Shown: one piece after another, positions 6,642-32,005 of the stretch
Numbering within the stretch: the stretch's first letter is position 1
Layout of the letters: every line of letters starts with the position of its first letter
Assembly: GCF_002982315.1 (NCBI RefSeq)
Contig: NZ_MWZD01000019.1
Location: 1-64,000 of the forward strand
Direction: 5' to 3'
From: Leucobacter massiliensis
GTDB lineage: Bacteria > Actinomycetota > Actinomycetes > Actinomycetales > Microbacteriaceae
DNA: 64,000 nt
Translations under genes and position numbers: made by a program
The notes under the pieces: model-generated
The model's input: the letters and a program-made list of their open reading frames with translations, nothing else
The model's database searches: none
Told to the model about the DNA's origin: nothing

Positions 6642-6680
6642 CCCCTGCACAGGACATGAGGGGGCTACGAGATAGGTGCG
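6642..6680 (-). promoter_or_regulatory. Shared leader element upstream of ssb
   Basis: Read on the minus strand, the box CGCACCT (6674-6680) comes first, then a hairpin with stem CCCCT/AGGGG (6642-6663), then the AGGAGT ribosome-binding site and the ATG at 6618. This is one of eleven leaders in the element with the same order. Confidence 0.6.
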
Positions 6681-6688
6681 GGCCGTGA

Positions 6689-6734
6689 TCGTGGCGACTG
6701 GACACCACGACTTTAGGATTGATAATGTAGTTGC
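6689..6734 (+). promoter_or_regulatory. Probable promoter of the 6735 operon
   Basis: A -10-like GATAAT at 6721-6726 lies nine bases before the ATG at 6735, so the transcript is probably leaderless or nearly so. An inverted repeat CGTGG-N9-CCACG at about 6690-6708 overlaps the expected -35 region and could be an operator. No ribosome-binding site is seen. Confidence 0.45.
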
Positions 6735-7160
6735 ATGAGTGAAAACAAGTTCTCTGTTGAAGATGCAACTCGTCTAGTCGCCGTGGGTGCGAAGGCTGCG
6801 CAGGATGCGCGGCGAGCCACGCGATGGTTCCGTGTCTTCGTGGTCATGCAGGCCGCGTATGCGCTGGCCTTTACGCTTTCGCTTGACATTGCCAAGGTGA
6901 ACTATTGGAAGGCGTTCGCGCCGTTCATGCTCGTCACGCTCTGTATTTGGATGATCGCGTTCCGATATCGAGAGTCGATCCCGCGCCACGGCTTGCGGAA
7001 TATGGGCATCGCGGTGGCGACTTGGTTCGCGCTTTACACCCTCATGCTTGACCCTGCGCTGCAATTGTTTGGCCTGTCTTCGCCGTGGTGGTGGGTGCTC
7101 GCCGGAATTGTTTCGATCACGCCGATTCTGGCGTGCCTGTTCGCGAGCTCACGCCGATGA
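6735..7160 (+). CDS. Small multi-pass membrane protein
   Basis: A 141-residue protein with four hydrophobic segments at about 30-50, 57-75, 87-107 and 117-136, and an N-terminal soluble stretch of charged residues. No catalytic motif is recognised. It is the first gene of a four-gene operon within the ICE, and its stop overlaps the start of the regulator (ATGA). It resembles regulator-linked membrane proteins of unknown function. Confidence 0.65.
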   Translation: MSENKFSVEDATRLVAVGAKAAQDARRATRWFRVFVVMQAAYALAFTLSLDIAKVNYWKAFAPFMLVTLCIWMIAFRYRESIPRHGLRNMGIAVATWFALYTLMLDPALQLFGLSSPWWWVLAGIVSITPILACLFASSRR

Positions 7161-7573
7161 CCACACCCAATACGACGGGGGCTGGGCAGCCTGAGTCCAA
7201 GTCTGGGGGCCACCCGCGCAAAGAGCTTGACTCGCTGATCCACTCCCCGGTGAGGTTCTCGTTACTGGCCGCGCTGCGGAACCTGGAAGATGTTGACTTC
7301 AGGTTTCTCGCAAACCTCCTGGAGGTGAGCGACTCCACACTCTCGCAAACCATCACCGTGCTCGCAGATGCTGACCTGGTGACCGTGCGTAAAGAAACCG
7401 TGGGCAGACGCACGCGCACCTGGGTTGGCATCACAACGACCGGGCGTACCGCGTTCGAACAACACCTTGCCACGCTGCAGGCCATTGTCGACTCAGGTAT
7501 CCCAGGCTCCTCAGGCAATAAAGGCAACGGCGGACAAGCCGCCGCCTCTGGACAACCAGGAGAATCCCAATGA
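7157..7573 (+). CDS. Winged-helix transcriptional regulator (MarR/HTH_34-like)
   Basis: A 138-residue protein with a winged helix at about 20-105: LIHSPVRFSLLAALRNLEDVDF, LANLLEVSDSTLSQTITVL, then the wing ADLVTVRKETVGRRTRTWV. This matches the small PF13601-type family of transcriptional regulators. The tail is Gly-rich and disordered. Its ATG overlaps the preceding stop, and its own stop overlaps the next start, so it is translationally coupled on both sides and probably autoregulates the operon. Confidence 0.8.
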   Translation: MTTPNTTGAGQPESKSGGHPRKELDSLIHSPVRFSLLAALRNLEDVDFRFLANLLEVSDSTLSQTITVLADADLVTVRKETVGRRTRTWVGITTTGRTAFEQHLATLQAIVDSGIPGSSGNKGNGGQAAASGQPGESQ

Positions 7574-8556
7574 CACCCCGCTTAGCTAGCGTCGACGACC
7601 TCCCCACGAGCGCAATCAGTCTTGCTGCTGCGTTTGAACATTATCCGTGGACGCGCCACGTGATTCCTGAAGAGAACTATGATCAGCGGCTACACGATCT
7701 ACAGTTGCTGTATCTCGAGTATGCGCACATGCATGGGATCGTCGCCGTAGTGGGCAACAGCGAGGGCGTGATCGCGCTCCTGCCGCCCGATGCTCCCGAA
7801 CCCGACCCAGGGATGATCGACGAGATCGTGCGCTTGCACGGCGACCGGATCGACAGACTCGACCACGCTGACTTACCTACTGATCCACCGACAGGAGCAT
7901 GGCGGCTCGAAACTCTTGGCGTGCATCCCAACTCCCAAGGCAGCGGGATCGCGTCTGCCCTGTTGTCGTTCGCGCTGACTGAAACGGCCAGGCGAGGCGG
8001 TGCATCAGTGGAGCTGGACACCTCTGACCCCCGCAACGTCCGCCTGTATGAGCGGCACGGATTTCAAACCATCACCCATACCGGCGCGGGCGGAGGACCT
8101 CCGGTGTGGAAGATGAGGGCGAACCTCCCTCATGCGCCAGGCAAGGGGCGTCCACCAGAAACAACGGCTGCCGAAGCTCTGAGTGCGTATCTGGCGGCTA
8201 CGAATACGCACGACTTTGACCAGATCGAGAAACTTCTCTCCTCTGATGCCGTTTATTTCTTCGGTGACGCAACCTGTATCGGTGTCACCCAGGTGCGCGA
8301 CTATTTCGAGCGGACCTGGGCGATGATCCCCGATGAGCACTATTGGGCCGAAGACATCGAATGGGTGGCTGACACCGAACAGGCAGCTGTGGCGACCTAC
8401 ACGTACCACTGGAAAGGCACCATAGGAGGCGAGATGCGCTCCGGTGCCGGGCGTGCCACGAACGTCTTCATGCGAACCGAGCACGGGTGGCGACTCACGC
8501 ACGAGCATCTCAGTTCCCTCCCACCCGGAGATCTACATCAGGAAACAGACGCATGA
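7570..8556 (+). CDS. GNAT acetyltransferase fused to SnoaL/NTF2-like domain
   Basis: A 328-residue fusion. Residues about 1-185 are a GNAT domain, with the acetyl-CoA loop at LETLGVHPNSQGSGIASALL and the C-terminal YERHGFQ strand. Residues about 200-320 are an NTF2-like cone domain (LSAYLAATNTHDFDQIEKLLSSDAVYFF, then RTEHGWRLTHEHLS) of the SnoaL/DUF4440 type. The substrate is unknown. It is coupled to the regulator upstream, and its TGA overlaps the ATG of the interrupted phosphatase gene, so the four genes form one operon. Confidence 0.82.
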   Translation: MTPRLASVDDLPTSAISLAAAFEHYPWTRHVIPEENYDQRLHDLQLLYLEYAHMHGIVAVVGNSEGVIALLPPDAPEPDPGMIDEIVRLHGDRIDRLDHADLPTDPPTGAWRLETLGVHPNSQGSGIASALLSFALTETARRGGASVELDTSDPRNVRLYERHGFQTITHTGAGGGPPVWKMRANLPHAPGKGRPPETTAAEALSAYLAATNTHDFDQIEKLLSSDAVYFFGDATCIGVTQVRDYFERTWAMIPDEHYWAEDIEWVADTEQAAVATYTYHWKGTIGGEMRSGAGRATNVFMRTEHGWRLTHEHLSSLPPGDLHQETDA

Positions 8557-8651
8557 GGACGCTGTATGTGGTCACCCACCCCGAAGCCACACACCACGTT
8601 GAAGCGCCCCGGGTCTGATGGAGGCTCTCAATCCAGTGAAGGATGAGAGTC

Positions 8652-8972
8652 ATGGCAGCACCACGGAAGTACAGCGAGGAGCTCAAGGAGCGCGCGACGC
8701 GGATGGCGCTGGACGCGCGCCAGAACCCCGCGACGAAGACCGGAGCGATCAAACGGATCGCCGACCAGCTCGATATCCATCCCGAGGCCTTGCGCACCTG
8801 GGTGAGGCAGGCCGAGATCGACGCCGGCGACGCGCCAGGCACCACGACCGCGGACACGCAGAAGATCGCCGACCTCGAACGAGAGGTCCGTGAGCTGCGG
8901 CGGGCGAACGAGATCTTGAAGACCGCGTCGGCTTTTTTCGCGGCCGCGGAGCTCGACCGCAAGCTGAGGTAA
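8652..8972 (+). CDS. IS3 transposase OrfA
   Basis: A DNA-binding protein of about 106 residues: an HTH (KERATRMALDARQNPATKTGAIKRIADQL, IHPEALRTWVRQAE) followed by a leucine-zipper-like segment ending ANEILKTASAFFAAAELDRK. I chose ATG 8652, although an upstream ATG at 8643 is possible. A GCTTTTTTC run at about 8931-8939 near the end is a plausible -1 slippery site that would fuse OrfA to OrfB. Confidence 0.9.
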   Translation: MAAPRKYSEELKERATRMALDARQNPATKTGAIKRIADQLDIHPEALRTWVRQAEIDAGDAPGTTTADTQKIADLEREVRELRRANEILKTASAFFAAAELDRKLR

Positions 8973-8977
8973 CCGGG

Positions 8978-9952
8978 GTGCCGGTCGCGGTGCTCGTCGA
9001 CTACATCGATGAGCACCGCGACCGGTTCGGGGTCGAGCCGATCTGCCATGTCCTGCGTGATGCGGGCCTGAAGATCGCCCCGAGCACCTACTACGCCGCC
9101 AAGACGCGCCCGCCCTCGGCCAGAGCGGTCAGAGACGAGCAACTGAAAGCGGACATCGCGGCTGTCCATGCCGACAATCTCGGCGTCTACGGGGCGCGGA
9201 AGGTCCACGCCGAGCTGAATCGAGAGGGCGTCTCGGTTGCCCGTTGCACCGTCGAGCGACTGATGCGCGAGCTCGAGCTGCAGGGGCTCCGGCGCGATAA
9301 GACGATCAAGACCACCTCGGGTGATACTGCGGAGACGGAGCGGCCAGCGGATCTCGTCGAACGAGCGTTCACCGCGACAGCACCGAATCAGCTCTGGGTC
9401 GCGGATCTGACCTACATCCGCACCCATGCCGGATGGGTCTACGCGGCGTTCGTGATCGACGTGTTCAGCAGGCTCGTCGTCGGCTGGCAGGTGTCCACGA
9501 GCCTACGCACGGAACTCGCGCTCGACGCGCTCGATATGGGGCTCTGGCAGCGCCGCAGAAACGGGCAGGACACGACCGGGCTCATCCACCACAGCGACCG
9601 AGGAGTCCAGTATCGCGCCATTCGCTACACCGAGCGCCTCGCCGAAGCCGATGCCGTTGCTTCCGTTGGAAGCAAAGGCGATTCGTATGACAACGCGATG
9701 GCCGAGGCGTTCAACTCGCTGTTCAAGGGCGAGTGCATCCGCAACCCAGCGATGCGTCCGAAGGGCGGCTGGGCATCCATCGGCGACGTCGAGATCGCCG
9801 TCGCCGAATACGTCGACTGGTTCAACCAGCGGCGTCTCCACGGCGAGATCGGGCACGTCCCGCCGGCCGAGTTCGAGCAGTCGCATTGGGCATCGCACGA
9901 CGCGGCCCGCTACGCTCACGAGCAGGTTCCGATCGGAGCCGGTTCCAGATAA
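8978..9952 (+). CDS. IS3 transposase OrfB, DDE integrase
   Basis: A 324-residue rve-type transposase, with an upstream HTH_21 region (YGARKVHAELNREG) and the catalytic core. The DDE triad is visible as D in WVADLTY, D in HHSDRG and E in MAEAFNSLFKGE. It starts at a GTG six bases after OrfA ends, but the frame is open upstream as expected for an OrfAB fusion made by -1 frameshifting. It looks intact and could be active. Confidence 0.93.
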   Translation: MPVAVLVDYIDEHRDRFGVEPICHVLRDAGLKIAPSTYYAAKTRPPSARAVRDEQLKADIAAVHADNLGVYGARKVHAELNREGVSVARCTVERLMRELELQGLRRDKTIKTTSGDTAETERPADLVERAFTATAPNQLWVADLTYIRTHAGWVYAAFVIDVFSRLVVGWQVSTSLRTELALDALDMGLWQRRRNGQDTTGLIHHSDRGVQYRAIRYTERLAEADAVASVGSKGDSYDNAMAEAFNSLFKGECIRNPAMRPKGGWASIGDVEIAVAEYVDWFNQRRLHGEIGHVPPAEFEQSHWASHDAARYAHEQVPIGAGSR

Positions 9953-12351: not shown

Positions 12352-12364
12352 GACACAGCACCTT

Positions 12365-12409
12365 CCCGACCCCAGAGGTGGAAGAGGCGGGGTCGGGAGA
12401 ACAGGTACG
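12365..12409 (-). promoter_or_regulatory. Shared leader element upstream of traG
   Basis: On the minus strand, CGTACCT (12403-12409) is followed by a 9-bp stem, CCCGACCCC/GGGGTCGGG (12365-12397), ending 13 bases before the start codon. An IS5 element inserted 11 bases upstream of the box, leaving the leader intact. Confidence 0.65.
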
Positions 12410-12420
12410 GGCCAGAGTTA

Positions 12421-13347
12421 GGGCGTGCTGCTAAAGGTTGATTCGTGGTGTGCGGGTGACGCTTGGAGCGTGTCGCGTGCTGAGATCTCCGATGAGGCCT
12501 GGGCTGTGATCGGGCCGCTGTTTCCTGCCGTGAAAACGACGGGGCGTCCGCCGGTGGATCGCCGCGCTGTAGTTGACGCGACCGCGTGGCGATACCGGAC
12601 CGGCGCGCCATGGCGGGATGTCCCTGAGCGATTCGGGAACTGGAACACGATCTACAAGAACGTCAACCGGTGGTCCGCACAGGGCGTCTGGGCACGGGTG
12701 CTCGAGAAGACGCAGTCGCTCGCGCATCAACGAGGCGAACTGGACCGGGTCGCTTCGATCGACTCGACCATCGTGCGCGTGCACCAGCACGGCGCGACCC
12801 TGAAGCGCGACACAGGGGGCTCGGTCGAACTACAAGAAGTTCGGCGCCGAGCCTCCTGACCACGCGATCGGCCGCTCCCGCGGTGGGCTGACGAGCAAGA
12901 ACCACCTGGTCTGCGACGGGCGAGCCCGGGCGCTGGCGTTCGTGCTGACGCCCGGGCAGGCGGCGGACACGAGCATGCTGATCGACACGCTCTCCGAGAT
13001 CCGCGTCCCCGGACGCACCGGCAGACCGCGGTCGCGGCCGGAGCGAGTGCTCGCCGACAAGGGCTACCCGTCGAAAGCGAACCGGGCCTGGCTGCGCGAA
13101 CAAGGCATCGCAACGACGATCCCCGAACGCGACGACCAGATCGCCCACCGCCGCAAGCACCCCGGCCGCCCCATCGACTTCGGGCGGGAGCAGAAGGAGC
13201 GCTACAAGCGCCGCAACGTCGTCGAACGCTGCTTCAACAAGCTCAAGCAGTGGCGCGGCATCGCGATGCTCTCAGACAAGACTGCCCGCAACTACCACTC
13301 CGCCATCTGCCTCGCCGCGACACTCCAATGGGTTTAGCAACACCCCC
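12421..13347. mobile_element. IS5-family (IS427-like) insertion sequence, 927 bp
   Basis: The inverted ends are GGGCGTGCTGCTAAA on the left and the complement of GGGGGTGTTGCTAAA on the right. A TA dinucleotide is duplicated at 12419-12420 and 13348-13349. Two frames encode the transposase with a shift between them, as in IS427-group elements. It lies between the traG leader and the 3-prime end of the SUKH-like gene. Confidence 0.92.
12425..13337 (+). CDS. IS5-family transposase, two frames joined by frameshift
   Basis: Frame 1 (12425-12859) carries the DUF4096-type N-terminus (ISDEAWAVIGPLFP, WRYRTGAPWRDVPERFG) and the first catalytic D in SIDSTIVRVHQHG. Frame 2, open from before 12820 to 13337, carries NYKKFGAEPPDHAIGRSRGG, the second D in LADKGYPS and E in VVERCFNKLKQWRG. 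The change of frame coincides with a GGGGG run at about 12814, consistent with programmed frameshifting in IS427-type elements. The protein looks complete if shifted. Confidence 0.9.
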
Positions 13348-13880
13348 TAGTCGCCTGGCGTCGGGTCAGTGACGTCGGCGGCACCGAACAGCAAGCTGTC
13401 GAAGACCTGGTCGCGCCGGGCCGGCCGCGCGGTGGTGTACCTCAGCAGATCTTCGAAGTGAGAGAACACGACGACCGCTTCTTCGAACTCTGGCTCGGAA
13501 CCGTGGACGACTGCTCCGTCGTCTCGCACCGCCAGGTACTCGTATCCGTTGCGAACGGAAAGCAGGATAGGTGCGTGGCGCCTCCAGAAACGGGAGACCG
13601 CGACCGCCTCATCATCCGTCGTCGCAGCCTGGATGCTCAGCAGTTCACACTCGTTCCACGCGAACGCCCCCTCCGCCCCGGTCGAGTAGTCGTCGCGGGA
13701 CAAGAACCACACCGTCTCGTCTGAGCTCGACAGGAGTGAGAACGAGGACACCCAGCGGATCACCGTTTCGGGTGCCGCGCGCAGCGGGGAGGGAACGTCG
13801 TTCTCCATCGACGTCGGCGGCTCAAACGTCCACCCGGCTTCCTGCAAGCTTCCGGCGGCACTTCGGAAGAGTTCCGTCAT
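13347..13880 (-). CDS. SMI1/KNR4 (SUKH)-like protein, possible immunity protein
   Basis: A 177-residue acidic protein. The pattern of an N-terminal WTFEPP segment, a central WFLSRDDYSTG, then WRRHAPILLSVRNGYEYLAVRDDGAVVHG and FSHFEDLLRYTT is that of SUKH-superfamily proteins, many of which are immunity proteins of contact-dependent toxins. No partner toxin gene is seen nearby. The IS5 insertion fell in its stop codon: the TAG now used borrows one base from the IS end, where the original would have been TAA. It sits between two inverted IS5 copies. Confidence 0.6.
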   Translation of the reverse strand: MTELFRSAAGSLQEAGWTFEPPTSMENDVPSPLRAAPETVIRWVSSFSLLSSSDETVWFLSRDDYSTGAEGAFAWNECELLSIQAATTDDEAVAVSRFWRRHAPILLSVRNGYEYLAVRDDGAVVHGSEPEFEEAVVVFSHFEDLLRYTTARPARRDQVFDSLLFGAADVTDPTPGD

Positions 13881-13918
13881 GCTCCCAGCCTACCGATCCG
13901 CCTGGCATAGGCAGGCGG

Positions 13919-14257
13919 TCACCAGGTCGCGCCGGTATTGGCCCATTCCAGTGTCGACAACTTCGCCTCGATCTTCTCGAGCACCCGTGCCCAGACGCCC
14001 TGTGCGGACCACCGGTTGAAGTTCTTGTAGATCGTGTTCCAGTTCCCGAATCGCTCAGGGACATCCCGCCATGGCGCGCCGGTCCGGTATCGCCACGCGG
14101 TCGCGTCAACTACAGCGCGGCGATCCACCGGCGGACGCCCCGTCGACTTCACGGCAGGAAACAGCGGCCCGATCACAGCCCAGGCCTCATCGGAGATCTC
14201 AGCACGCGACACGCTCCAAGCGTCACCCGCACACCACGAATCAACCTTTAGCAACAC
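13919..14257 (-). pseudogene. Truncated second copy of the IS5 transposase
   Basis: This frame repeats the first 95 or so residues of the IS5 transposase with two substitutions (T to S, V to F). It then departs into unrelated sequence ending STLEWANTGATW, losing all catalytic residues except those upstream of the first D. The tail after 13972 is probably pre-existing DNA read in frame by chance. Confidence 0.88.
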
Positions 14258-14261
14258 GCCC
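13972..14261. repeat. 290-bp inverted partial copy of the IS5 element
   Basis: It matches bases 12421-12710 in inverted orientation with only a few differences, and includes the intact outer inverted repeat at 14261. The inner part and other end are missing. With the full IS it brackets the SUKH-like gene in a composite-transposon-like arrangement. Confidence 0.92.
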
Positions 14262-14809
14262 TAGTCGATGGTTTGGATCGACGTCGTGCCTGAGATTCGT
14301 CCGAGCAGGATGACCTCGCCGCTGCTGAGCGCGGGCTTCTCGCCTCGGTCGATCAAGGCGCGGGCGTTCCCGGTGTGATCGGCTGATGAGTGACGAACGA
14401 CGATCGCCACGGCGACATCCTCACCGGGGACAAACCCTTCTGCTTTGAACTCCAACAAGCTCGGAACCGACACTGGTGCTCCGGCTGTTTCGGGCGGAGC
14501 GAACGGAGATCGAGGCTGCGGAGCGGGTGGCGTGAGGATGTCTGCCCGAATACTGCCGTCGAGCTCCCGCACCTCCACCCTCGTCGGCGCACCAAACCGG
14601 GTGACGAGCTCGGTCACTGTTGCAGCGATCTCACTACGGGTGATCGGGGTGGCGGCAAGTTTGTCGCCGTTGACCGTCACGACCAAGCTCGTGTCAGAAA
14701 GCGCTTCGAGGAGGATCTGCGGCAACACAGCAGGAACGACCCGTGAAAGGCTTTCACTGGAGGACGGGGTGTCGGATTTGCGTGCGCGGAGACGTCGTCG
14801 AAGGTTCAT
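14261..14809 (-). CDS. Hypothetical conjugation-operon protein
   Basis: A 182-residue protein with an Arg-rich N-terminus (MNLRRRLRARKS), a helical middle (IAATVTELVTRFG) and a C-terminal beta-rich region (VPSLLEFKAEGFVPGEDVAVAIVV). No catalytic motif. Its ATG overlaps the stop of the preceding gene, so it is translated with the VirB4 operon. Its stop codon also lies at an IS junction (TA plus the terminal IS base), so the natural C-terminus may have been longer. Confidence 0.6.
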   Translation of the reverse strand: MNLRRRLRARKSDTPSSSESLSRVVPAVLPQILLEALSDTSLVVTVNGDKLAATPITRSEIAATVTELVTRFGAPTRVEVRELDGSIRADILTPPAPQPRSPFAPPETAGAPVSVPSLLEFKAEGFVPGEDVAVAIVVRHSSADHTGNARALIDRGEKPALSSGEVILLGRISGTTSIQTID

Positions 14810-15333
14810 GTCAGGAAGGTGCGGCCCGGCCCCGACCGGTTCAGGTCTCCGCGATCGACCGCTTCCATCGTGAGGGCCTCTGCGCGCTCGGCCAACTGGT
14901 ACGTGTTCTTCGCCCAGTTCTCGGTCACGCGCAGCAGTTGCTCGTAATCATCGGACGCGATCTCGCCCTCAGCGATGGTCATCCACGGATACGAACCATC
15001 CATACTCGGCACGTGAACTTCTGATTCCCACGACCAGGACGTCGGAACCCTTTCGTCGTCTCGCCAATCAGTACCCATGTACAGCTCGGTGACCGCGAAC
15101 CTCGACGCGTGTCCCTCGAGCGGGTAGAAGACGTAGTGGCCAGCCCCGAACGTCACCGGGTCTTCGAACGCGAGAAAGACGTGCTTGTCGTACCGGGTGC
15201 CGAGCTCATTCATCCCATCGTGCAGCGCCATCATGTTCCGGGACAACTGCTCCTCGGTGAGCCTGCCCGGTGCACCCGCGACTGCTGGGGAGCTTTGCTG
15301 CGACTCGAAGTCCTCGTTCTCATCCACGATCAC
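14806..15333 (-). CDS. Hypothetical conjugation-operon protein
   Basis: A 175-residue, very acidic, mostly helical protein: NMMALHDGMNELGTRYDKHVFLAF, then SWSWESEVHVPSMDGSYPW and YEQLLRVTENWAKNTYQLAERAEAL. No membrane segment or known motif. I chose the GTG at 15333 because it overlaps the TGA of the VirB4-like gene (GTGA); the longer frame upstream is the antisense of virB4 and unlikely. It is coupled on both sides, so it probably belongs to the transfer apparatus. Confidence 0.65.
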   Translation of the reverse strand: MIVDENEDFESQQSSPAVAGAPGRLTEEQLSRNMMALHDGMNELGTRYDKHVFLAFEDPVTFGAGHYVFYPLEGHASRFAVTELYMGTDWRDDERVPTSWSWESEVHVPSMDGSYPWMTIAEGEIASDDYEQLLRVTENWAKNTYQLAERAEALTMEAVDRGDLNRSGPGRTFLT

Positions 15334-16877: not shown

Positions 16878-16897
16878 GTGACACCGGACAGGTACGC
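16878..16897 (-). promoter_or_regulatory. Shared leader element upstream of virB4
   Basis: On the minus strand, CGTACCT (16891-16897) is followed by a short GGTG-T-CACC inverted repeat (16878-16886), then the start at 16847. This hairpin is weaker than in most other leaders. Confidence 0.45.
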
Positions 16898-16904
16898 CTT
16901 GGTC

Positions 16905-18365
16905 TCATACGCCGCGACACAGCGGCAACGCCGCCGCGACGAACGCCTGCGCCTGCTGGCCCAGGAGCCGCCTGGTCTCGCACGATGCTTGGATCGCTGC
17001 TTGCTCGATCGCGGACACCGCGGCCTCGAGTTCGTCTTCCGTGGGGGCGGAGATGGCGAGGAGGCCGGTGTAGCGGAGGACGCCGTGGCCGCTGGTGAGG
17101 TCTGCCTCCTGTTGGAGGACGTCTTGGTATTCGGCGGTCTGCTGGGCATCTTCGATCTGCCCGACTTTCTGCCGCTGGGCCGCATCTGAGATGTATTCGG
17201 TCTTCTTCTTGCGGATATCGCGGGCTGCCTGGTCAGAGCGGATCGGGTCACACAGCAGTGTGAATGCGCGCCTAATGCCGGAGGACAGCAGCACTGGGGC
17301 AAGGAAGCCTGGGTAGACAAGGGAGCGTGGCCACTCGCTGACCCACAACACTGCGTGATGCGCACTATCGGAGCGCAGCCCATCCCAGGTTTCTTCGACG
17401 GCGACAGGGCCAGCCGCGGCGAGGTCTTGCCCGATCTCGCCGGAACGTTCCAGGGTCGCGGCGATTGCCGGATCGTAGGCGGAGCGGAGCATGATGGCGA
17501 GCTGGCCCGGCGTGTACCAGGCGGTGGGTTTGAGATCCGCGGAGCGCAGCGCGGTAGTGAGGGTGTCCATCTCCTGTCTCAAGACGACGGCTGCTCCTTT
17601 GAGGCTGCCGCCTGCGGTACGGATCGCGCGGGCTGCTGCCCGCATATCCAGGGACAGCGAGATGGTGGAGATGTGCCGTTCACCAGCGGGGCCTGCCCGG
17701 TCGATGAGCTCCCGATAGGTGCGGGCGACCCAGGAATCGTCGTCGTTGCCGTGCTCGGCCCACCACTGTGCAAGCCCCGACCCTGAGTCAGGGACGGTGC
17801 GCTCGAGCACCTGCAGGCGGGCGATGCGGGTGGAGCGGCATGCAGTGGACAGGACGCGTCCCCAGGCGTGCACGCGACGTTCCTGGTCGCCGGGGTCGAG
17901 GAGGATGAACGACGGATGGGTCACCTCCACCAGCGCAGTCAACGTCTGCGCGTGCGGATCGTGCACCATCACCGCCCCGGTCTCCGGATCCTCGTACTGG
18001 CGAAGCGGTGCCGCATCCCCCGGGAGCGCGAGCGTCCCCGCGGGCCGGGGCTTCACGACGCGCCGCCGGTACCTGGTCTGCCCCAGCGCCTGGCGGAGGA
18101 GCCAGTGCAGGGTGATCGGTACCCATTCGACGAGTTTCCTGCCGCTGATGGGAACCCAGGTGAGGGCGATCGCGGTGCCCCAGATAGGTGAGGTGTACAG
18201 CGCCGCGGGGCCGCCGGTGTACAGGGACGCGATGAAGACGGCGACGGCGACCGAGAGCGCAATGACCTGTGGGAGGGAGAGGCCGAGGATGATGCCGCGT
18301 TTGGTGAGGCGGGAGAACTTCACCGGGGACAGTTCGAACTCGTTCTGCGTGGATGCGGTACTCAT
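16905..18365 (-). CDS. SCO6880-family type IV secretion protein
   Basis: A 486-residue protein of the actinobacterial SCO6880 family: an N-terminal PrgI-like part with two membrane segments (about 25-65), then a soluble domain resembling the N-terminal half of VirB4. Recognisable stretches are SRLTKRGIILGLSLPQVIAL and RHISTISLSLDMRAAARAIRTAGGS. It is thought to link the membrane platform to the VirB4 motor encoded just downstream. I chose ATG 18365, which has AGGAGG nine bases upstream, over an in-frame ATG at 18416. Confidence 0.85.
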   Translation of the reverse strand: MSTASTQNEFELSPVKFSRLTKRGIILGLSLPQVIALSVAVAVFIASLYTGGPAALYTSPIWGTAIALTWVPISGRKLVEWVPITLHWLLRQALGQTRYRRRVVKPRPAGTLALPGDAAPLRQYEDPETGAVMVHDPHAQTLTALVEVTHPSFILLDPGDQERRVHAWGRVLSTACRSTRIARLQVLERTVPDSGSGLAQWWAEHGNDDDSWVARTYRELIDRAGPAGERHISTISLSLDMRAAARAIRTAGGSLKGAAVVLRQEMDTLTTALRSADLKPTAWYTPGQLAIMLRSAYDPAIAATLERSGEIGQDLAAAGPVAVEETWDGLRSDSAHHAVLWVSEWPRSLVYPGFLAPVLLSSGIRRAFTLLCDPIRSDQAARDIRKKKTEYISDAAQRQKVGQIEDAQQTAEYQDVLQQEADLTSGHGVLRYTGLLAISAPTEDELEAAVSAIEQAAIQASCETRRLLGQQAQAFVAAALPLCRGV

Positions 18366-18404
18366 GCGGTTCCTCCTGAAGGCGACGTTGGGTGCGTGCA
18401 GGTC

Positions 18405-18491
18405 AGGTACGGACACGAAGAAGCGGGCGGTAACCCGGTGCTGGGTTACCGCCCGCGTGACGGACGTGCGTCTTCTCTCCTTTCAGGTGCG
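18405..18491 (-). promoter_or_regulatory. Double-box leader with strong hairpin upstream of SCO6880-type gene
   Basis: On the minus strand the order is box CGCACCT (18485-18491), a perfect 14-bp stem GCGGGCGGTAACCC/GGGTTACCGCCCGC with a 6-base loop (18423-18456), box CGTACCT (18405-18411), then AGGAGG and the start. The stem lacks a U run, so it is not a simple terminator. It could end or process transcripts coming from the VirB6-like gene. Confidence 0.65.
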
Positions 18492-18499
18492 AGGTATGT

Positions 18500-19948
18500 T
18501 CACGACTTCGGTGCGGGCTTCGGCGGCGGAGGCGCATCCCCACCCGCAGGTTTCGCAGGAGGCGTCTTCGGTGCAGCTCCCGAGGACGGTGGGCTCGGCT
18601 GGGCGGGCGGCGTGGAGCGATCCGGTGGTGGTGGCGGGGTCTGTGCTTCGCTTGCGGCCCCGGCGTGGTTGTCCGCGGTGCGACCAATAGCGCCGCCGAG
18701 TTTCGGCCCTGCTTCCGCGGCTCCCTTGGCGATCTTCGCCCCAGCAACCGCGGCGATCCCGATCGGCCCTGCCGCAGCTCCGGCACCGGCACCGCCCGCG
18801 GCTGCAGCACCGCCACCGGATCCTGCTGCCGCGCCACCGGACCCGGCAGCGCCCGCGGAGCCGAACGCCGCACCACCACCTGCGGAACCTGCACCGCCGC
18901 CCGCAGGCGCAGATGGCTTACCGCTCGGTGGAGGTGGCGCATTGCCGCCTCCACCGCTTCCGCCACCCTTTTCGCCGCCGTCGAGTACCTTCTGCGGGCC
19001 TGCACCGTCTGGTTTCCCTGGCAACGGCATGGGCCGGTTCATGGCTTGCTTGGACTCTTGTTCGGCGGACATGACGTGGTACATGTCGAAGCCGACGAAG
19101 CTGATGAACTTGTAGACCATGTACGGGGCGAACGCGGCGATGAACATCAGCACGATCCCCGCGATCGGATCCGCGATCGAGGATAGATCCAGGTCGATGG
19201 GTACGTTGACCTGGTTGATGGCGACGAGAAACACCACCACGATCACCAGCTTGGAGAAGATCAGCGCGAGCACAAAAGATGCCCACTTCCCAAACCATCC
19301 CTTCGTCGCATCCCACGACGCTCCCGACAGGGCGATCGGTGCCATGACGACCGCGACGAGGATCAAGGCCTTCCGGATGAGGAGTGAGAACCAGACGATT
19401 GCTGCGGCACAGATCGCGAGGAAGCTGAGGAAGATCGTGATGATTGCCCCGGCTCCTGGTGCGGTGAGGTTGATCGCGGTGAGCCCAGCGACGAGCACAC
19501 CGATCTTCCCGCCCATCTCTTCCAACGTTGTGCCGGTGGCTTGGATGATGCCGATGCTCAGCTGGTCGACGACCTCGAGGAGAGTTGCGGTGAGGGTGAT
19601 CACCAGGAACGACCCCAACACGCTCTTTGCGAGCCCGAGAGCTGCGCGGGAGAGTGCGGTGGGGTCGCGCCGGATTAGGCCGGTGATGAGTTGGAGGCAG
19701 AAGAAGATCAGCATGATGAAGATCGCGATCCCGAAGATCACGTTATACACACCGATGTAGCCCGCCCCGGTGACATCGACCAGGGTCGTGGAGTCGAACA
19801 GCGCCCACACGCCCTGGAAGATCCAGGACGCGGCCTGCCCGATGGCTTGTGCGAGCCAGTCGAAAGGGGCTGCCACGAGGGTGGCGGCCCCTTCGCCGAC
19901 GGCGTCGCAGACGTTACTGATGATGGGGACGTCGCAGATTCCAGCCAC
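18500..19948 (-). CDS. VirB6/TrbL-like conjugal membrane protein
   Basis: A 482-residue inner-membrane protein, probably the channel platform. About six hydrophobic segments lie between residues 60 and 285 (for example IGVYNVIFGIAIFIMLIFF, AIITIFLSFLAICAAAIVWF, IVVVFLVAINQ). A long low-complexity cytoplasmic tail from about 305 is extremely rich in Gly, Ala and Pro. The start is a GTG at 19948 with GGGAGGGG upstream. Its neighbours are the pilin genes upstream and the SCO6880-type gene downstream. Confidence 0.82.
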   Translation of the reverse strand: MAGICDVPIISNVCDAVGEGAATLVAAPFDWLAQAIGQAASWIFQGVWALFDSTTLVDVTGAGYIGVYNVIFGIAIFIMLIFFCLQLITGLIRRDPTALSRAALGLAKSVLGSFLVITLTATLLEVVDQLSIGIIQATGTTLEEMGGKIGVLVAGLTAINLTAPGAGAIITIFLSFLAICAAAIVWFSLLIRKALILVAVVMAPIALSGASWDATKGWFGKWASFVLALIFSKLVIVVVFLVAINQVNVPIDLDLSSIADPIAGIVLMFIAAFAPYMVYKFISFVGFDMYHVMSAEQESKQAMNRPMPLPGKPDGAGPQKVLDGGEKGGGSGGGGNAPPPPSGKPSAPAGGGAGSAGGGAAFGSAGAAGSGGAAAGSGGGAAAAGGAGAGAAAGPIGIAAVAGAKIAKGAAEAGPKLGGAIGRTADNHAGAASEAQTPPPPPDRSTPPAQPSPPSSGAAPKTPPAKPAGGDAPPPPKPAPKS

Positions 19949-20734: not shown

Positions 20735-20753
20735 GGCGTGCCGTTCAGGTGCG
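20735..20753 (-). promoter_or_regulatory. Shared leader element upstream of pilin copy 2
   Basis: On the minus strand, the box CGCACCT (20747-20753) is followed by a small ACGG-CACGC-CCGT hairpin, then GAGGAGG and the ATG at 20706. Confidence 0.5.
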
Positions 20754-20793
20754 AGCGGCGGGAGGGAGTTCCTCAATCGGAGAGAATGAGAGG

Positions 20794-22410: not shown

Positions 22411-22437
22411 CGGCGGCATATTTCGCTCGATAGCGCA

Positions 22438-23607: not shown

Positions 23608-23622
23608 GACTGCCCCCTTGCC

Positions 23623-24312: not shown

Positions 24313-24337
24313 TTGAAGCCTCCGAACAGAGAGAAGG

Positions 24338-24371
24338 GCGGGCAGAGTCACCCATCAGGTGCGCTGCCCGC
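24338..24371 (-). promoter_or_regulatory. Shared leader element upstream of the TcpC-like gene
   Basis: On the minus strand, an 8-bp stem GCGGGCAG/CTGCCCGC encloses the box CGCACCT (24357-24363) and an inner CACC-TGATG-GGTG hairpin. The ATG lies 26 bases downstream. This is the best-formed example in the set. Confidence 0.7.
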
Positions 24372-24394
24372 CCAGAAACCCCCGGACCGCTCGG

Positions 24395-25540
24395 CTATGC
24401 AGGGCTCGTCGCGCCCAGCGGCTCGAGCTCCTCGGCCGCTTCGTCGTGCGTGGTGTCGCGTGCAGCCTGCGCATGCTGGAGGAAGTCGTTGGCCGAGGTG
24501 ACGTAGGTGGCGACGAGATCGAACTGTTCCTCGTCGGCGTAGCTGCCGAAGTCGATGGGGTTATAGCGGTCCCACCAGCCGTGCTCACGGCGCAGCAGAT
24601 CCACGAGCTTGCGGATCGCATGCTTCTCCCGCAGCAACGGGTCTACGTCTTTCCACCCTGCGACCTGAGAGCTCGAGGCTTCCTTGCGCAGTTGGTGGAT
24701 GCGGGCCACGGCGCGGGTAGCTTCTTTGAACGCGTCCTTGGGGTGGTCTTGCGCGGTCACGAGCTCAAGTTCTGACTTTGCCGCCGCACGAACGGCGTCC
24801 GATTCGTCTGGATCGTGCACCCAGTCGGTGAGGGTGCGGATTGTCTGCGCGAGTTTGACGCGCAGGTACCGGCCGTTGACCTTCCCGTCTGCGTTCAGTT
24901 CCAGCAGCGCCTCGGCTGCTGCTTGCCGGATCTCGGGATGCTCGTCATCACTCGCGGCGATCTGTTTGAGATCGACGACCTGGTCCAGCATCGAATGGGA
25001 GTCCCGGCCGGTGACCGCCTTAGCAGCCTGTACGCGTGCCTTCCCGCCGCCAGAAATTGCTGCGGCCTGCGGGGGTGTTGAATCAACACCCCCGGTGATT
25101 CCAGCCGAATCGTCGTCTTCCAGAGATTGTGTAAGGCGTTGATCGCGGGTGCTGGAGCCGAACTGAGTGGCTGCTTCACGGCGTTGCGCTTCTTCGGCGT
25201 AGAGGACTTTGAGTTCCTCATACAGTTCGGCCTGTTCGATCGGGGTGAGCATCTTGTGCAGCGTGTTCTCATCTTGAATCGCCAAAACGGTGGACAGTTT
25301 GTCGGAGACGCCCTGCACCACCCACACCGGAACCGCGCGATGCCCAAGTTCACGCATCACCGCCAGTCTCCTGTTGCCTGAGATCAGTACGTTCCCGGCG
25401 GTGATCACGATGGGCGAGAGAAGCCCGAACCGGCGAACCGATTCGGTGAGCTCCTCCAGATCCCCCAGGTCACGCCGGTAGGAGTGGCCCTCGGTGATCT
25501 GATCGATGGCGTGTTCCAGCACCAGATGCCCGCGACTCAT
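24395..25540 (-). CDS. parB: ParB/Spo0J-family protein
   Basis: A 381-residue protein with an N-terminal ParB nuclease-like/CTPase domain: ITEGHSYRRDLGDLEELTESVRRFGLLSPIVI, and the GNRRLAVMRELG segment corresponding to the conserved GERR box. A central helical region and HEAT-like segments (about 190-260) follow, then an acidic tail. No ParA is present in the window. It may act in replication control or segregation of the excised circle. Its ATG overlaps the previous stop (ATGA). Confidence 0.82.
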   Translation of the reverse strand: MSRGHLVLEHAIDQITEGHSYRRDLGDLEELTESVRRFGLLSPIVITAGNVLISGNRRLAVMRELGHRAVPVWVVQGVSDKLSTVLAIQDENTLHKMLTPIEQAELYEELKVLYAEEAQRREAATQFGSSTRDQRLTQSLEDDDSAGITGGVDSTPPQAAAISGGGKARVQAAKAVTGRDSHSMLDQVVDLKQIAASDDEHPEIRQAAAEALLELNADGKVNGRYLRVKLAQTIRTLTDWVHDPDESDAVRAAAKSELELVTAQDHPKDAFKEATRAVARIHQLRKEASSSQVAGWKDVDPLLREKHAIRKLVDLLRREHGWWDRYNPIDFGSYADEEQFDLVATYVTSANDFLQHAQAARDTTHDEAAEELEPLGATSPA

Positions 25541-26382
25541 GCAGCACCTCCTTGCCCTTCCTGCAGGTCAGGTACGGACGCCATCCGGCGGGATGATTCC
25601 ACGAGGTCTTCATCGCGGAGAAGGTCGGCGACATCGTCACCGAGGAGCACACGAGCGAAGAGGCCATAGTCCCCGCGCTTGCGCCTGCCGGTCTTGGTGC
25701 CGACGACAAGACGAACCAAGGATGCCCAGGCTTCTGGGGTGTAGCCGAGACGGATCGCGATGTGCAGTTCCTTCGACACGATCTCCAGCGCCGAACTCGA
25801 GGACGACAGACCAGCGATGCGGTGGGCGATGTAGTCCACGGCTTGCTCGACGGGGCGGGCAGGCCAGTCAGTGAGGACAAGAAAGACGCAAGTCGCGCGG
25901 ATCACCCGATCCACCGAATGATCCTCACCCTCATGGTTTCGCGCGTAGAGCGAATGCGCGTGGGGGTGCACGTCGTAGAAGAACTCTTCATAGTGTCCCG
26001 CCCGCATCGGCTCCTCAGCGGGGCGTTTTGAGGGTCGGCGTGCTTTGTCTTGGCTGGTCATGTTCCGGTCCGCGTGGACTTCGGCGGCGATGCCGAGCGC
26101 GACGGCACGGGTGATCACTGCCCAAGGGTCGTCGGCGCGGAGCGTGGTGGGTTGCCGCATCGCGAGGAACGCCTCGTATGCAGCGTCCTCTGGCGCGCGC
26201 CGCCATGCTTTCGCGATGGGCGTGTACTTGTGAGTGACGTAGACCATGAGCTCGGCCGCGACCGGGCTCGACGCCCAGGCATTGTGCTCATTGAGTTCCG
26301 TGATGAGTGCCCGCAGTCCTTCACCGGTAGTAAAGTCCGGCGCCGGTGTGGGGTTCTGGTGTTTTGAGAATGGGGGTGTCAT
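25537..26382 (-). CDS. Hypothetical ICE protein upstream of parB
   Basis: A 281-residue soluble protein, helical, with several aromatic clusters (EEFFYDVHPHAHSLYARNHEG) and a basic stretch near 120-135 (KARRPSKRP). No motif I can assign. It starts at an ATG with AGGAGT upstream. The stop overlaps the parB start, so the two are co-translated and may cooperate in maintenance of the element. Confidence 0.6.
   Translation of the reverse strand: MTPPFSKHQNPTPAPDFTTGEGLRALITELNEHNAWASSPVAAELMVYVTHKYTPIAKAWRRAPEDAAYEAFLAMRQPTTLRADDPWAVITRAVALGIAAEVHADRNMTSQDKARRPSKRPAEEPMRAGHYEEFFYDVHPHAHSLYARNHEGEDHSVDRVIRATCVFLVLTDWPARPVEQAVDYIAHRIAGLSSSSSALEIVSKELHIAIRLGYTPEAWASLVRLVVGTKTGRRKRGDYGLFARVLLGDDVADLLRDEDLVESSRRMASVPDLQEGQGGAA
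25570..25576 (-). promoter_or_regulatory. Shared leader box before parB, inside upstream gene
   Basis: CGTACCT on the minus strand, followed by GACCTGCAGG, lies within the last codons of the upstream gene and 30 bases before the parB ATG. The surrounding sequence closely repeats that before the SCO6880-type gene (CCGTACCTGACCTGCA). Confidence 0.45.
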
Positions 26383-26630
26383 GGTGACTCCTGAGATGAG
26401 AGAAGATCCGTCGGTAGAGAGGTGTGACACCCACCCGACACGCATCCCCTCATCCCGCCGTCGCAGCGGAGACCACCCCCTGCCATAGGCAAAGGAGTAC
26501 CGTCAGGCCTACCCGAAGCGGGCAGCCCGTCAGGGGTTCGTCTGGCGTCAGTTGGACGTCGGCGAGGAGTGTGAGAGTTCGTCGTGGTAGGTGGTGGCCG
26601 GTGCTCGGGTAGCGCCGGAGCCGGAATCGT

Positions 26631-27080: not shown

Positions 27081-27804
27081 GAGATGCTCCGTTCTCTCGA
27101 CGGTCAGGTGCGCTCAGCCAGCGGCCCACCGTTGTCGGATGCACCCCAAGCTCTGTGGCGATCTGCCGTCTCGAAACCCCATGAGACGCTAACGCGACCG
27201 CCTGCTCACGCCCAGCGGAGCCCTTCTTCTTGGCTCGGGCAAATGCTGGCGCAGAAGGCCCGGCACCGGCGTTGCTTGAACTTCTTGCTGCGGAGAGCAC
27301 CGGTGTCGATGCCGCTCTTCGCCTGTTTACCGTCGGAGTCTCAGAGGTCCGCTGTGGGGCTTCGTTACGCGTGAGCTCGACGGTCAAATGGGTCATTGCG
27401 AGCAGCACCAAGGGTGGGACTGAGGCGACAAGGGCTGCGATGATCGCGGGCACACGAGTGTCTGAGGCGACGACGGCGTGGGTGATGTTCGCCGCGACAC
27501 TCACCCCAGCACCGGAAGCGAGCAGGAGCCAGGCGAACCGGCGTGCGGCGGGCGCGGAGTTGCGCAGCGCGACGACGGAGATCGTCGCTTCCAAGATCAC
27601 CCCGTCAACGATCAGCGGCCACACCCACGCCTGCCCCGCCGGTACCCCCGACAGGACCGCGAGGTCCTGCAGCGTCGTAAACGACAACCAGAACGCACCG
27701 AGGGCGAGAAGGATCGTGCCCGTGACGGCTAGGACAATCACGCCGCGTGACACCCCAGACCGTCCCACCTCTGCGGCGCGTACGTGCAGGTCCGGGGCGC
27801 TCAC
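27073..27804 (-). CDS. DUF2637 membrane protein with C-terminal helix-turn-helix
   Basis: A 243-residue protein. Four membrane helices between about 20 and 140 form a DUF2637 domain (LALGAFWLSFTTLQDLAVLSGV, WVWPLIVDGVILEATISV, SGAGVSVAANITHAVVAS). A basic linker is followed by an HTH (EQAVALASHGVSRRQIATELGVHPTTVGRWL). DUF2637 proteins of Streptomyces ICEs (SpdB-like) assist intramycelial spread, and the HTH suggests a membrane-tethered DNA-binding protein. It starts at a GTG two bases after the primase gene ends. Confidence 0.82.
   Translation of the reverse strand: MSAPDLHVRAAEVGRSGVSRGVIVLAVTGTILLALGAFWLSFTTLQDLAVLSGVPAGQAWVWPLIVDGVILEATISVVALRNSAPAARRFAWLLLASGAGVSVAANITHAVVASDTRVPAIIAALVASVPPLVLLAMTHLTVELTRNEAPQRTSETPTVNRRRAASTPVLSAARSSSNAGAGPSAPAFARAKKKGSAGREQAVALASHGVSRRQIATELGVHPTTVGRWLSAPDRRENGASHD
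27089..27112 (-). promoter_or_regulatory. Shared leader element inside the end of the DUF2637 gene
   Basis: On the minus strand, the box CGCACCT (27106-27112) is followed by a CCGT-N7-ACGG hairpin (27089-27103) and then the ATG at 27080. The hairpin's 3-prime arm contributes to the GGAG ribosome-binding site, so pairing could block translation. Confidence 0.55.
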
Positions 27805-27806
27805 GA

Positions 27807-28688: not shown

Positions 28689-28875
28689 CGGTCGGGCACC
28701 TCCTTTGGTGACACAGCGCGAGCAGTCATCGATGCTCAGCGTGCGGTGTCATGCGGAAGGTGCGGCGGCAACAGTGCCGTCATCACCCTGGGTTGCAGAG
28801 TCCGCTCTCGAGCATTCCCTAGTCCCATCAACCACTACCCGGCCCGAGCCGTGGCCGTCGAGTGTTTTCGTGAGA

Positions 28876-28915
28876 GATGCGTCAAATCGTCAAGAAGATG
28901 CGTCGAATCGTCGAA
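28876..28915. repeat. Direct repeat pair upstream of the primase gene
   Basis: GATGCGTCAAATCGTCAA (28876-28893) and GATGCGTCGAATCGTCGA (28897-28914) form a 21-bp-period tandem repeat. They lie in a 268-bp gene-free gap between the primase start and the end of the interrupted gene. Placement suggests an iteron-like or operator function. The rest of the gap shows no gene. Confidence 0.55.
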
Positions 28916-28956
28916 CACGCCCACCTCAGCCTCCACCGCACAAACAGCAGGTGGTG

Positions 28957-30147: not shown

Positions 30148-30316
30148 GACAGCAGACTCCATCACGAATGAGTAGACGGTAGCGAAATGAACACGAACAG
30201 CGGCGGCAGTGCCGCGTTCTATTGGTAGGCATACGAATCGGTGAAAAGCCCCGGTTACGGTAGGCATGCGCGGTGAGGTCAAGAACACGCGCGAAAACGA
30301 CAAGCTGAGATCGTGC

Positions 30317-30778: not shown

Positions 30779-30800
30779 CGTGGAGTCCTTCCAAGCGAGA

Positions 30801-30840
30801 GCTCGCGCCCTTCATGCGCGAGCGTTACGGGATAGGTGCG
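30801..30840 (-). promoter_or_regulatory. Shared leader element upstream of the 30317 gene
   Basis: On the minus strand, the box CGCACCT (30834-30840) is followed by an 8-bp stem GCTCGCGC/GCGCGAGC with a 7-base loop (30801-30823). GGAAGGA and the ATG at 30778 come next. Confidence 0.68.
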
Positions 30841-30850
30841 GAGAGGCCAG

Positions 30851-31933
30851 CTACACCTCCAGTCGTGAACGAATCAACGGAATGAACGATGGATCCTTCT
30901 CCACACCGATCACCCCGTAGTGGGCTTCAACGGCCGCCTGCAACGTCGTCCCGGAACCGGAGAACGGTTCGAGCACCAGCCCTCGCGGAGGGGTGACGAG
31001 CGTGATCAGCCAACGCATGAGCGCTAGCGGTTTCACGGTCGAATGGGAGACCCCGAACGCGCGGGGCCGCTCTTCGCGACCGGGTTTGTGATCGAAACGG
31101 AAGATCGGGAACTTCCGTGACAGCGACTCGCCCTGCCAGGTGCCCGTCAGCACGTCGAGCGCGTCGGCCTGCCCCTGATCGAAGACGACATTCGTCGGCC
31201 ACCGATCGTCTGCGAACCTGCCCCCGTCGACGTTGATAGCACCGACGCCATGCTGAAGAACATTGCCGACGACGGTGCCCGCGAACGGTTTCCTGGCGAT
31301 GATGATGGGCTCGAATGCGGGCCGCAACGCGGTACCCCATCCGTCCCATTGCTGGGCGTCATCGGTGACCGGGGTGCCTTTGGATAGGACGGTGCGGGTT
31401 GCACCGAGCACCCCGTCATGGTCGGTGGTCTGCACGATCCGATCGGTGCGGTGTGCACCAAGGTGCTTATCGATCGCGTGCGCGAGGTCCATGCTCTTGG
31501 GCATTCCGGTGGTGTGCAGCCACGCGATCTGGTCACGGATCTCGAACCCTGCATTCTCGATTCCGCGCACCATACGATGCCACGTGCGTGCACCACCGAA
31601 CGCTGCAACATACGCACCCGGCTTCAGCACGTGCAATGCTCCTGCAGCCCACGCCGTGCACCAGGCTTCGAACACTTCCGGTGCAGTCATTGCAGACGTG
31701 TCCATGTGTGGGAGGGACTCGCGAAACCCGGACGCGCCGTCCCAGGAGTGACCGTTAAAGCTCAACCCGTAGGGCGGGTCGGTCACAAGAGCGTCGATGC
31801 TCGCCTCAGGCAGGAGCGGGAGGAGCTCGACAGCGTCACCGAGATATACGGTGGTCTGCTCTTCGGCTATGACGGGGGCAGGTAGTTCAGCGAGCCTCGG
31901 CGCGGGGGCGGGCGGCGGGGTGGGGTCTGGCAT
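30851..31933 (-). CDS. N6-adenine or N4-cytosine DNA methyltransferase, beta class
   Basis: A 360-residue SAM-dependent methyltransferase. The catalytic motif IV TDPPYG lies at 51-56, near the N-terminus, and the SAM-binding FSGSGTT comes near residue 330, which is the beta-class order. The intervening region holds the target recognition domain. DPPY is compatible with either adenine or cytosine amino methylation. No restriction endonuclease is adjacent, so it probably protects the ICE on entry or regulates it epigenetically. I chose ATG 31933 after TAGGGAG. Confidence 0.9.
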   Translation of the reverse strand: MPDPTPPPAPAPRLAELPAPVIAEEQTTVYLGDAVELLPLLPEASIDALVTDPPYGLSFNGHSWDGASGFRESLPHMDTSAMTAPEVFEAWCTAWAAGALHVLKPGAYVAAFGGARTWHRMVRGIENAGFEIRDQIAWLHTTGMPKSMDLAHAIDKHLGAHRTDRIVQTTDHDGVLGATRTVLSKGTPVTDDAQQWDGWGTALRPAFEPIIIARKPFAGTVVGNVLQHGVGAINVDGGRFADDRWPTNVVFDQGQADALDVLTGTWQGESLSRKFPIFRFDHKPGREERPRAFGVSHSTVKPLALMRWLITLVTPPRGLVLEPFSGSGTTLQAAVEAHYGVIGVEKDPSFIPLIRSRLEV

Positions 31934-31949
31934 GGTGGGTGGCTCCCTA

Positions 31950-32005
31950 CTGTTCGGGGCCTGTCCGCCTTCGTGTGCGACGAACAGGATCACCCAGCAG
32001 GTACG
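31950..32005 (-). promoter_or_regulatory. Shared leader element upstream of the methyltransferase
   Basis: On the minus strand, the box CGTACCT (31999-32005), with the following GCTGGGT able to pair back to ACC, precedes a CTGTTCG/CGAACAG stem (31950-31987). The ribosome-binding site lies immediately after. Confidence 0.6.

Follow-up and report, generated by a model that had tools for sequence, protein, structure and literature searches.

The transfer region and its recurrent motif

The stretch of DNA analyzed here (the window) comprises the first 64,000 nucleotides of contig NZ_MWZD01000019.1 of Leucobacter massiliensis (assembly GCF_002982315.1). It carries an integrative and conjugative element (ICE), in whose transfer region a short motif, CGYACCT, stands upstream of many genes; this motif and the ICE-encoded protein hyp302 are the subject of the present analysis. 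Pfam identifies among the transfer-region genes those for SSB, a TraG-type coupling protein, two DUF6112 proteins, an M23 peptidase, a ParB-like protein, a DUF2637 protein with a helix-turn-helix, a prim-pol and an N6/N4 methyltransferase. The names virB4-like, SCO6880-type, TcpC-like and pilin are those of an earlier note on this DNA and trbL-like is named here, all being used as labels only. The genes lie on the minus strand, so that the motif reads AGGTRCG on the plus strand, and the C of CGYACCT is taken as position 0 (C0).

All 12 occurrences of AGGTRCG listed in the earlier note are present, two of them shifted by one base (16890 for 16891 and 20366 for 20367), and the box is more frequent than in shuffled sequence: there are 34 matches on both strands of the 64-kb window compared with 15.9 ± 4.3 in dinucleotide shuffles, none of 100 shuffles reaching 34. 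Between 5000 and 32100, 22 boxes have the orientation of the genes and three are opposed. Of the 22, 13 either lie 25–80 nucleotides (nt) upstream of a listed start or have a start codon at +14, compared with an expected 0.93 (binomial p 4e-13). This test used 20 listed gene starts, those of hyp218, xis and the methyltransferase being misplaced (the last by 2 bases), and the box 126 nt upstream of the SCO6880-type gene is excluded from the count of 13. Three further sites extend the list: 14817, before the leaderless gene 14261–14809; 28758, before the prim-pol gene; and a CACACCT variant upstream of 25537–26382, the gene for hyp302. The features are as follows.

6666..6691, minus strand: motif upstream of ssb (C0 6680, start 6618); a profile match precedes 30 of 31 ssb genes
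12395..12420, minus strand: motif upstream of traG (C0 12409, start 12351), with the box but no G(-10), and with a gene-specific conserved stem downstream
14809..14834, minus strand: motif upstream of hyp182 (14261–14809); start codon at +14, leaderless; absent from the earlier list
16882..16907, minus strand: motif upstream of the virB4-like gene (C0 16896, start 16847)
18397..18422, minus strand: proximal motif of the SCO6880-type gene (C0 18411, start 18365)
18477..18502, minus strand: distal second motif of the SCO6880-type gene (C0 18491, 126 nt from the gene); also present in the related locus L002
20358..20383, minus strand: motif upstream of pilin-like gene 2, DUF6112 (C0 20372, start 20308)
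20739..20764, minus strand: motif upstream of pilin-like gene 1, DUF6112 (C0 20753, start 20706)
24349..24374, minus strand: motif upstream of the TcpC-like gene (C0 24363, start 24312), lying between the arms of a 10-bp inverted repeat (by eye)
25562..25587, minus strand: motif upstream of the parB-like gene, within the 3' end of hyp302 (C0 25576, start 25540)
25537..26382, minus strand: hyp302, candidate cognate factor, 281 residues; residues 20–107 sigma-2-like, C-terminal half unrecognized
26412..26437, minus strand: motif upstream of hyp302, CACACCT variant matching the position weight matrix (PWM) (C0 26426, 44 nt to the ATG)
27098..27123, minus strand: motif upstream of hyp149, within the end of the DUF2637 gene (C0 27112, start 27080)
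28750..28775, minus strand: weaker motif upstream of the prim-pol gene (C0 28764, start 28688)
30826..30851, minus strand: motif upstream of hyp153 (C0 30840, start 30778)
31991..32016, minus strand: motif upstream of the DNA methyltransferase gene (C0 32005, ATG 31933)

Conservation of the motif in related elements

Fifty-two related actinobacterial loci were gathered by means of the SCO6880-type protein from Leucobacter, Microbacterium, Nocardioides, Brachybacterium and other genera. Within these loci and the first 36 kb of the window there are 469 copies of CGYACCT on the gene strand, as opposed to 113 on its complement. The full motif is G(-10)-N9-CGYACCTGNCNGGYRA, and a profile built from 208 non-redundant sites has the letters G(-10), C0 G1 Y2 A3 C4 C5 T6 G7, C9, G11 G12 Y13 R14. 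Matches to the first-profile PWM scoring at least 15 number 223 on the gene strand and four on the opposite strand. Near-identical leaders or matches were removed before logos and counts at an identity of 0.75–0.8, and at 0.9 for the per-gene folding described below. The flanks of the motif vary slightly between clades. In several leaders of locus L015, GGCACCT stands in place of CGCACCT, and the hyp302 of this locus is 37% identical; a joint change of factor and promoter is possible there.

The exact box is found upstream of 28/31 ssb, 35/48 pilin2, 31/43 tcpC, 22/49 pilin1, 18/51 virB4, 14/51 SCO6880-type, 11/38 traG and 7/43 parB genes; these family counts include the window, and in them, as in the profile-based ones, near-duplicates are kept. 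When the complementary strand of these leaders is read, the 18 leader groups together contain the exact box once. Five of the 35 pilin2 boxes, in Nocardioides-type loci, run into the 3' end of the coding sequence ahead of them and may be chance. No exact box precedes the trbL-like (0/49) or M23 (0/43) genes of the relatives and the window. A profile match is likewise absent upstream of genes that lie close behind another gene (trbL 0/49, M23 peptidase 0/42, DUF2637 0/26), one DUF2637 leader having the exact box. The suggestion of the earlier note that a common regulator controls the transfer regulon is thus well supported by the presence of the motif upstream of many gene families in the 52 loci.

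Position of the motif relative to start codons

Most genes have the motif 27–76 nt upstream of a start codon with a Shine-Dalgarno site. In a smaller set the motif runs directly into the start codon. Among 414 non-redundant matches, 17 ATG and 15 GTG codons begin at +14, compared with means of 3.0 and 4.3 at offsets 15–40; six ATG codons begin at +13. For this count the matches were scored on -11 to +10 only, excluding +11 to +16, on both strands and with open frames of at least 30 codons. Within the gene families all 15 leaderless members have their start codon at +14 (hyp182 8/37, pilin1 5/49, tcpC 2/43), six of the eight hyp182 cases being close relatives; the hyp182 gene of the window is itself leaderless. 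A pyrimidine-purine step in the motif at 13/14 coincides with the start-codon position of the leaderless genes. Because of these two features, transcription probably starts near +14. With such a start, CGYACCTG would occupy -14 to -7, its nearly invariant A falling at -11. An invariant A at -11 is typical of bacterial -10 elements. The +14 start codons and the 13/14 step are indirect signs that the oriented core may stand at a fixed distance from the transcription start, as it would in a promoter. The motif is very probably a real, conserved promoter used throughout the element.

The same letters could instead form the operator of a DNA-binding repressor or activator lying beside ordinary promoters. 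The G(-10), the box and the GG at 11/12 are spaced by about one helical turn, and there is a partial dyad, YACC-N5-GGTR, both of which suit such a protein. The letters of the dyad show no covariation, the motif is strongly oriented, the profile shows no fixed -10 hexamer, and a leaderless start codon at +14 leaves no room for a promoter downstream. An operator is therefore highly improbable. A sigma-54-like -24/-12 element, an RNA-polymerase pause and a direct-repeat operator, all suggested by the spacing, were considered as well and set aside.

RNA structure in the leaders

According to the earlier note, the box was accompanied by a hairpin before the ribosome-binding site whose structure was kept while its sequence changed. 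As a general feature this is not borne out; what is kept is the linear motif. No covariation is detected in 135 non-redundant leaders over registers -25 to +44 (best z 3.9 among about 2,300 column pairs). Consensus folding of 11 genes one by one gives a clear stem at traG, with 10 pairs of which five have compensatory changes (10 leaders, the score cut-off for this set being lowered to 6). Compensatory pairs are few at pilin2 (1/5) and prim-pol (2/5) and absent at parB (0/11) and hyp149 (0/7), and the other six genes give no pairs. The claim of a conserved structure therefore stands clearly for traG and fails for a stem common to the 135 leaders; the other per-gene stems are not clear. The traG stem spans 12352–12409 of the window and overlaps both the box and the ribosome-binding site. 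Next to it, between hyp182 and traG, 12421–14260 is taken up by an insertion about 1.8 kb long whose inverted ends match (by eye) and which stops, on the upstream side, some 12 nt short of C0 at traG; the G(-10) missing at traG is also missing in L001, which shows no insertion there.

A structured RNA regulatory element common to the leaders finds no support, both a shared covarying secondary structure and an Rfam match having been looked for and neither found. The Rfam comparison proposed in the earlier note returns for the window only tRNA and ALIL at gathering thresholds, with no family at the leaders. The ALIL pseudoknot (RF01497) lies at 8930–9082 on the plus strand, with a score of 51.6 bits where gathering requires 50. 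Pairing of the box with the anti-Shine-Dalgarno sequence or helix 45 of 16S rRNA, examined by eye, was also rejected, as the box does not track Shine-Dalgarno variants.

An RNA-level mechanism, close to the view of the earlier note, would have a protein or small RNA bind CGYACCU in polycistronic leaders and control translation with the help of the hairpins. The fixed orientation of the motif, its place upstream of ribosome-binding sites, its location within the upstream gene at parB and hyp149 and the conserved stem at traG all agree with such a mechanism. So does the Shine-Dalgarno site, which is slightly less free in read-through RNA with the real upstream sequences than with those exchanged among genes (0.294 vs 0.342; 79 of 131 genes, p 0.0025). 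Against it stand the start codons directly at +14, which leave no leader, the lack of a common covarying stem and the Rfam result. RNA-level control by the motif is accordingly quite improbable. If the motif is a promoter, the hairpins may in addition hide the ribosome-binding site in transcripts that enter from upstream, in keeping with the weak trend in Shine-Dalgarno accessibility.

hyp302 as candidate reader of the motif

The gene for hyp302 adjoins parB, and neither Pfam nor NCBIfam has a family that matches it. An alignment of 32 of its 43 homologues shows an N-terminal pattern like that of sigma region 2 (PEDAAYEAFLAMR ... DPWAVITRAV). Most of the 11 omitted sequences are near-duplicates; L007 has a late start call and L037 a long false N-terminus. 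The split or interrupted homologues of L122, L132 and L141, whose elements are possibly decayed, were excluded from the combined alignment.

The model of full-length hyp302 has a pLDDT of 72.7; sigma factors and TFIIB-like chains are frequent in its Foldseek list, each of these matches being weak. The N-terminal domain, modeled with AlphaFold from a 57-sequence alignment, reaches a pLDDT of 88.2 and a pTM of 0.79. The best TM-scores at low rmsd against the PDB are those of SigI1 (0.59, 3.0 Å) and T4 gp55 (0.52, 7d7c), and region 2 of sigma-E gives 0.50 at an rmsd of 6.6. Among the best 50 of 65 PDB matches about 18 are sigma chains, several of them assigned by their chain letters. In a viral structure library phage sigma factors are among the better TM-scores, with E-values above 1. 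Profile comparison by hhalign of the N-terminal domain with 20 region 2 domains of extracytoplasmic function (ECF) sigma factors gives p 0.0028, in register, and none of 200 column shuffles is as good; 14 other ICE families give p 0.027–0.89.

Region 4 was sought in the C-terminal half by comparison with 14 putative sigma-4 sequences chosen by a pattern, and none was found (p 0.24; best of 40 shuffles 0.065). The lack of a recognizable region 4 fits a promoter without a -35 box. Because neither a curated sigma profile nor region 4 was found in it, hyp302 is not assigned to the sigma-70 family. The titles and opening lines of abstracts returned by literature searches contain no report of the motif or of such a factor.

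Association of the motif with hyp302

Where a locus spans 15 kb or more and has both a SCO6880-type gene and hyp302 (45 loci), the median number of gene-oriented matches scoring at least 14 is 5 (range 1–11). Seventeen SCO6880-type control loci without hyp302 (L175–L191) have 0–1. The controls come from 15 of 24 matching genomes; the host genome itself, G168 (which has hyp302) and seven more were omitted. Seven loci have the motif and no hyp302 in the stretch: L030, L031 and L036, of at least 15 kb, and L013, L039, L045 and L050, which are smaller or cut. The prediction that hyp302 lies elsewhere in the genome held for all seven, the copy of L030 being about 4.7 kb past the stretch on the same contig. 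There are three hyp302 matches in the genome of L030 (G781) and three in that of L050 (G786); a single genome may harbor several of these elements.

A second kind of element is represented by six stretches of 9–19 kb (L131 and L133–L137) that encode hyp302 and have no match to 13 other ICE families, so that hyp302, of 14 families tested, is the only one shared with the ICE, together with the motif. Genes lie on both strands of these stretches. Pfam finds TrwC relaxases in L135 and a serine recombinase in L136, and the other stretches were matched to these by tblastn. The box lies 27 nt upstream of the hyp302 start in all six (scores -1.9 to 15.2, at least 14 in three). The recombinase-like gene has a site 30–55 nt upstream of its start in all six (5.4 to 16.6). 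Relaxase sites, scored in L133, L135, L136 and L137, reach 8.3 to 14.7; in L134 the gene was misplaced, and in L131 none was found. The small gene behind hyp302 has an ATG at +13 or +14 in each of the six. By eye, a long hairpin covers the ribosome-binding site in the relaxase leaders of L133 and L137.

These stretches bear on the possibility that the promoter is real and read by another factor, either a sigma factor of the host aided by an activator that the element encodes or a different protein of the element, with hyp302 acting otherwise. Several ICE genes co-occur with the motif, and the sequence evidence for a sigma region 2 in hyp302 is weak, as such a reading would have it. The six stretches with motif and hyp302 have no match to parB, hyp149, prim-pol or DUF2637, and this result weighs against the suggestion of the earlier note that the common regulator may be the ParB-like or the DUF2637 protein. 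The closest folds to hyp302 by TM-score are sigma region 2, and the short pattern shows no excess in the whole host genome (43 matches vs 50 for the reversed control), though the extended pattern, with one mismatch allowed, is slightly in excess (124 vs 91). We consider another reader rather unlikely; hyp302 is the best candidate.

Matches to hyp302 were found in 37 genomes among the 396 taken from the host order and in 7 among the 396 taken from across the phylum, the host being included in both counts. One of the seven, L096, is judged spurious: its distant match covers 48 positions with one internal stop, and no hyp302-like open reading frame was noticed in the list of such frames. A search of 50,697 phage records with hyp302 gave no match at E 0.01, and a plasmid search gave one plasmid matching 40% of the protein. 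Elsewhere in the window, at 3530–3752, a tRNA-Pro lies beside repeated partial copies of its sequence and near an integrase gene (by eye); this is likely the attachment site, perhaps used more than once.

Proposed mechanism

Taken together, the motif is probably an element-specific promoter, starting transcription at about +13/+14, that is read by the element's own sigma-like protein hyp302. CGYACCT would be the core of this promoter, which would drive many transcription units in the transfer region; most of the mRNAs would have leaders of about 13–60 nt, and some would be leaderless. The sigma-region-2-like N-terminal domain of hyp302 would bring the host RNA polymerase to these sites. Through the motif upstream of its own gene hyp302 may also activate itself, and its production would switch the transfer units on together.

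A number of observations weigh against this proposal. Start codons exceed background at other offsets too, with 12 ATG at +8, 7 ATG at +12 and 29 GTG at +12; the +8 ATG and +12 GTG counts are probably made by the motif's own letters. A G fixed at -24 in the absence of a -35 box does not match the sigma-70 promoters known. The extended pattern exceeds its reversed control in the host genome, element included. For hyp302 itself, no sigma family of Pfam or NCBIfam matches any of the 32 members at E ≤ 1, and the sole match of its alignment to PDB profiles is a designed protein at E 0.19. The lowest Foldseek E-value of the N-terminal domain against the PDB is 2.4, and one non-sigma entry reaches a TM-score of 0.51 at an rmsd of 8.7. 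The hhalign probability for ECF region 2 is 11%, and other versions of this comparison are weaker, at 0.34, 0.91, 0.0089 and 0.045. Polar residues that are canonical in region 2.2 of sigma factors seem not to be conserved in the alignment of the homologues.

The co-occurrence has its own weaknesses. Sixteen of the 17 controls are distant, their SCO6880-type proteins being 29–43% identical. In L175 this protein is 68% identical and the genome has no hyp302 (38 of 38 candidates scored); L175 is not a clean control, because its 20 kb has no pilin, M23 or tcpC matches. In the ICEs hyp302 travels as one block with parB and mostly with hyp149 and prim-pol, few loci separating them, and co-occurrence alone therefore cannot name the reader. 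A few hyp302 loci have hardly any matches scoring at least 14 (a single one in L015 and in L126, none in L131 or in L144, which has hyp302 with part of an ICE). In L125, a seventh stretch with hyp302 alone and a very diverged copy of it, no box is present at the hyp302 start.

hyp302 may well represent a new family of mobile-element sigma-like proteins, with a sigma-2-like domain joined to an unrelated C-terminal domain, that serves actinobacterial conjugative and mobilizable elements through private promoters lacking a -35 box, initiation some 14 bases downstream of the C of CGYACCT, and leaderless or short-leader mRNAs. If so, widespread actinobacterial conjugative elements run their transfer genes through a private transcription program whose sigma-like protein is invisible to sequence searches, which would explain how these elements could switch on as a unit. 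The motif would then be a searchable mark for element genes and their starts, and motif and protein a portable promoter-factor pair.

Comparison with known systems

Phage sigma factors acting on their own promoters are a close parallel. T4 gp55 (7d7c) is a mobile-element factor with a private regulon, as hyp302 would be, and its sigma-2-like domain resembles that of hyp302 (TM 0.52). The promoters of gp55, like those proposed for hyp302, have no -35 box, the T4 late promoters being TATAAATA. The putative hyp302 promoters differ in their GC-rich CGYACCT, and hyp302 has no match among the phage records searched. ECF sigma factors read -10 boxes of the CGTA or CGTC type, comparable with the CGYA core described here, and hyp302 resembles their region 2 in register. 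The differences are that no region 4 was found in hyp302 and that the motif has no visible -35 GGAAC and an extra G at -24. SetCD of the SXT/R391 elements is an activator; its regulon shares with the case proposed here the control of transfer genes by the element itself and differs in being run by an activator.

In the conjugative transposons of Clostridioides difficile, sigma-factor-like genes have been predicted, picked out by a helix-turn-helix for the -35 region (PMC3158075). They share with hyp302 the placement of sigma-like genes on conjugative elements, whereas an element-wide set of promoters is not described in the available part of that paper. In Tn916 the transfer genes are expressed from Porf7 after excision, with antitermination (PMC11658703). 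Tn916 encodes the control of its own transfer, as the present element would, but here many units have their own copy of the probable promoter.

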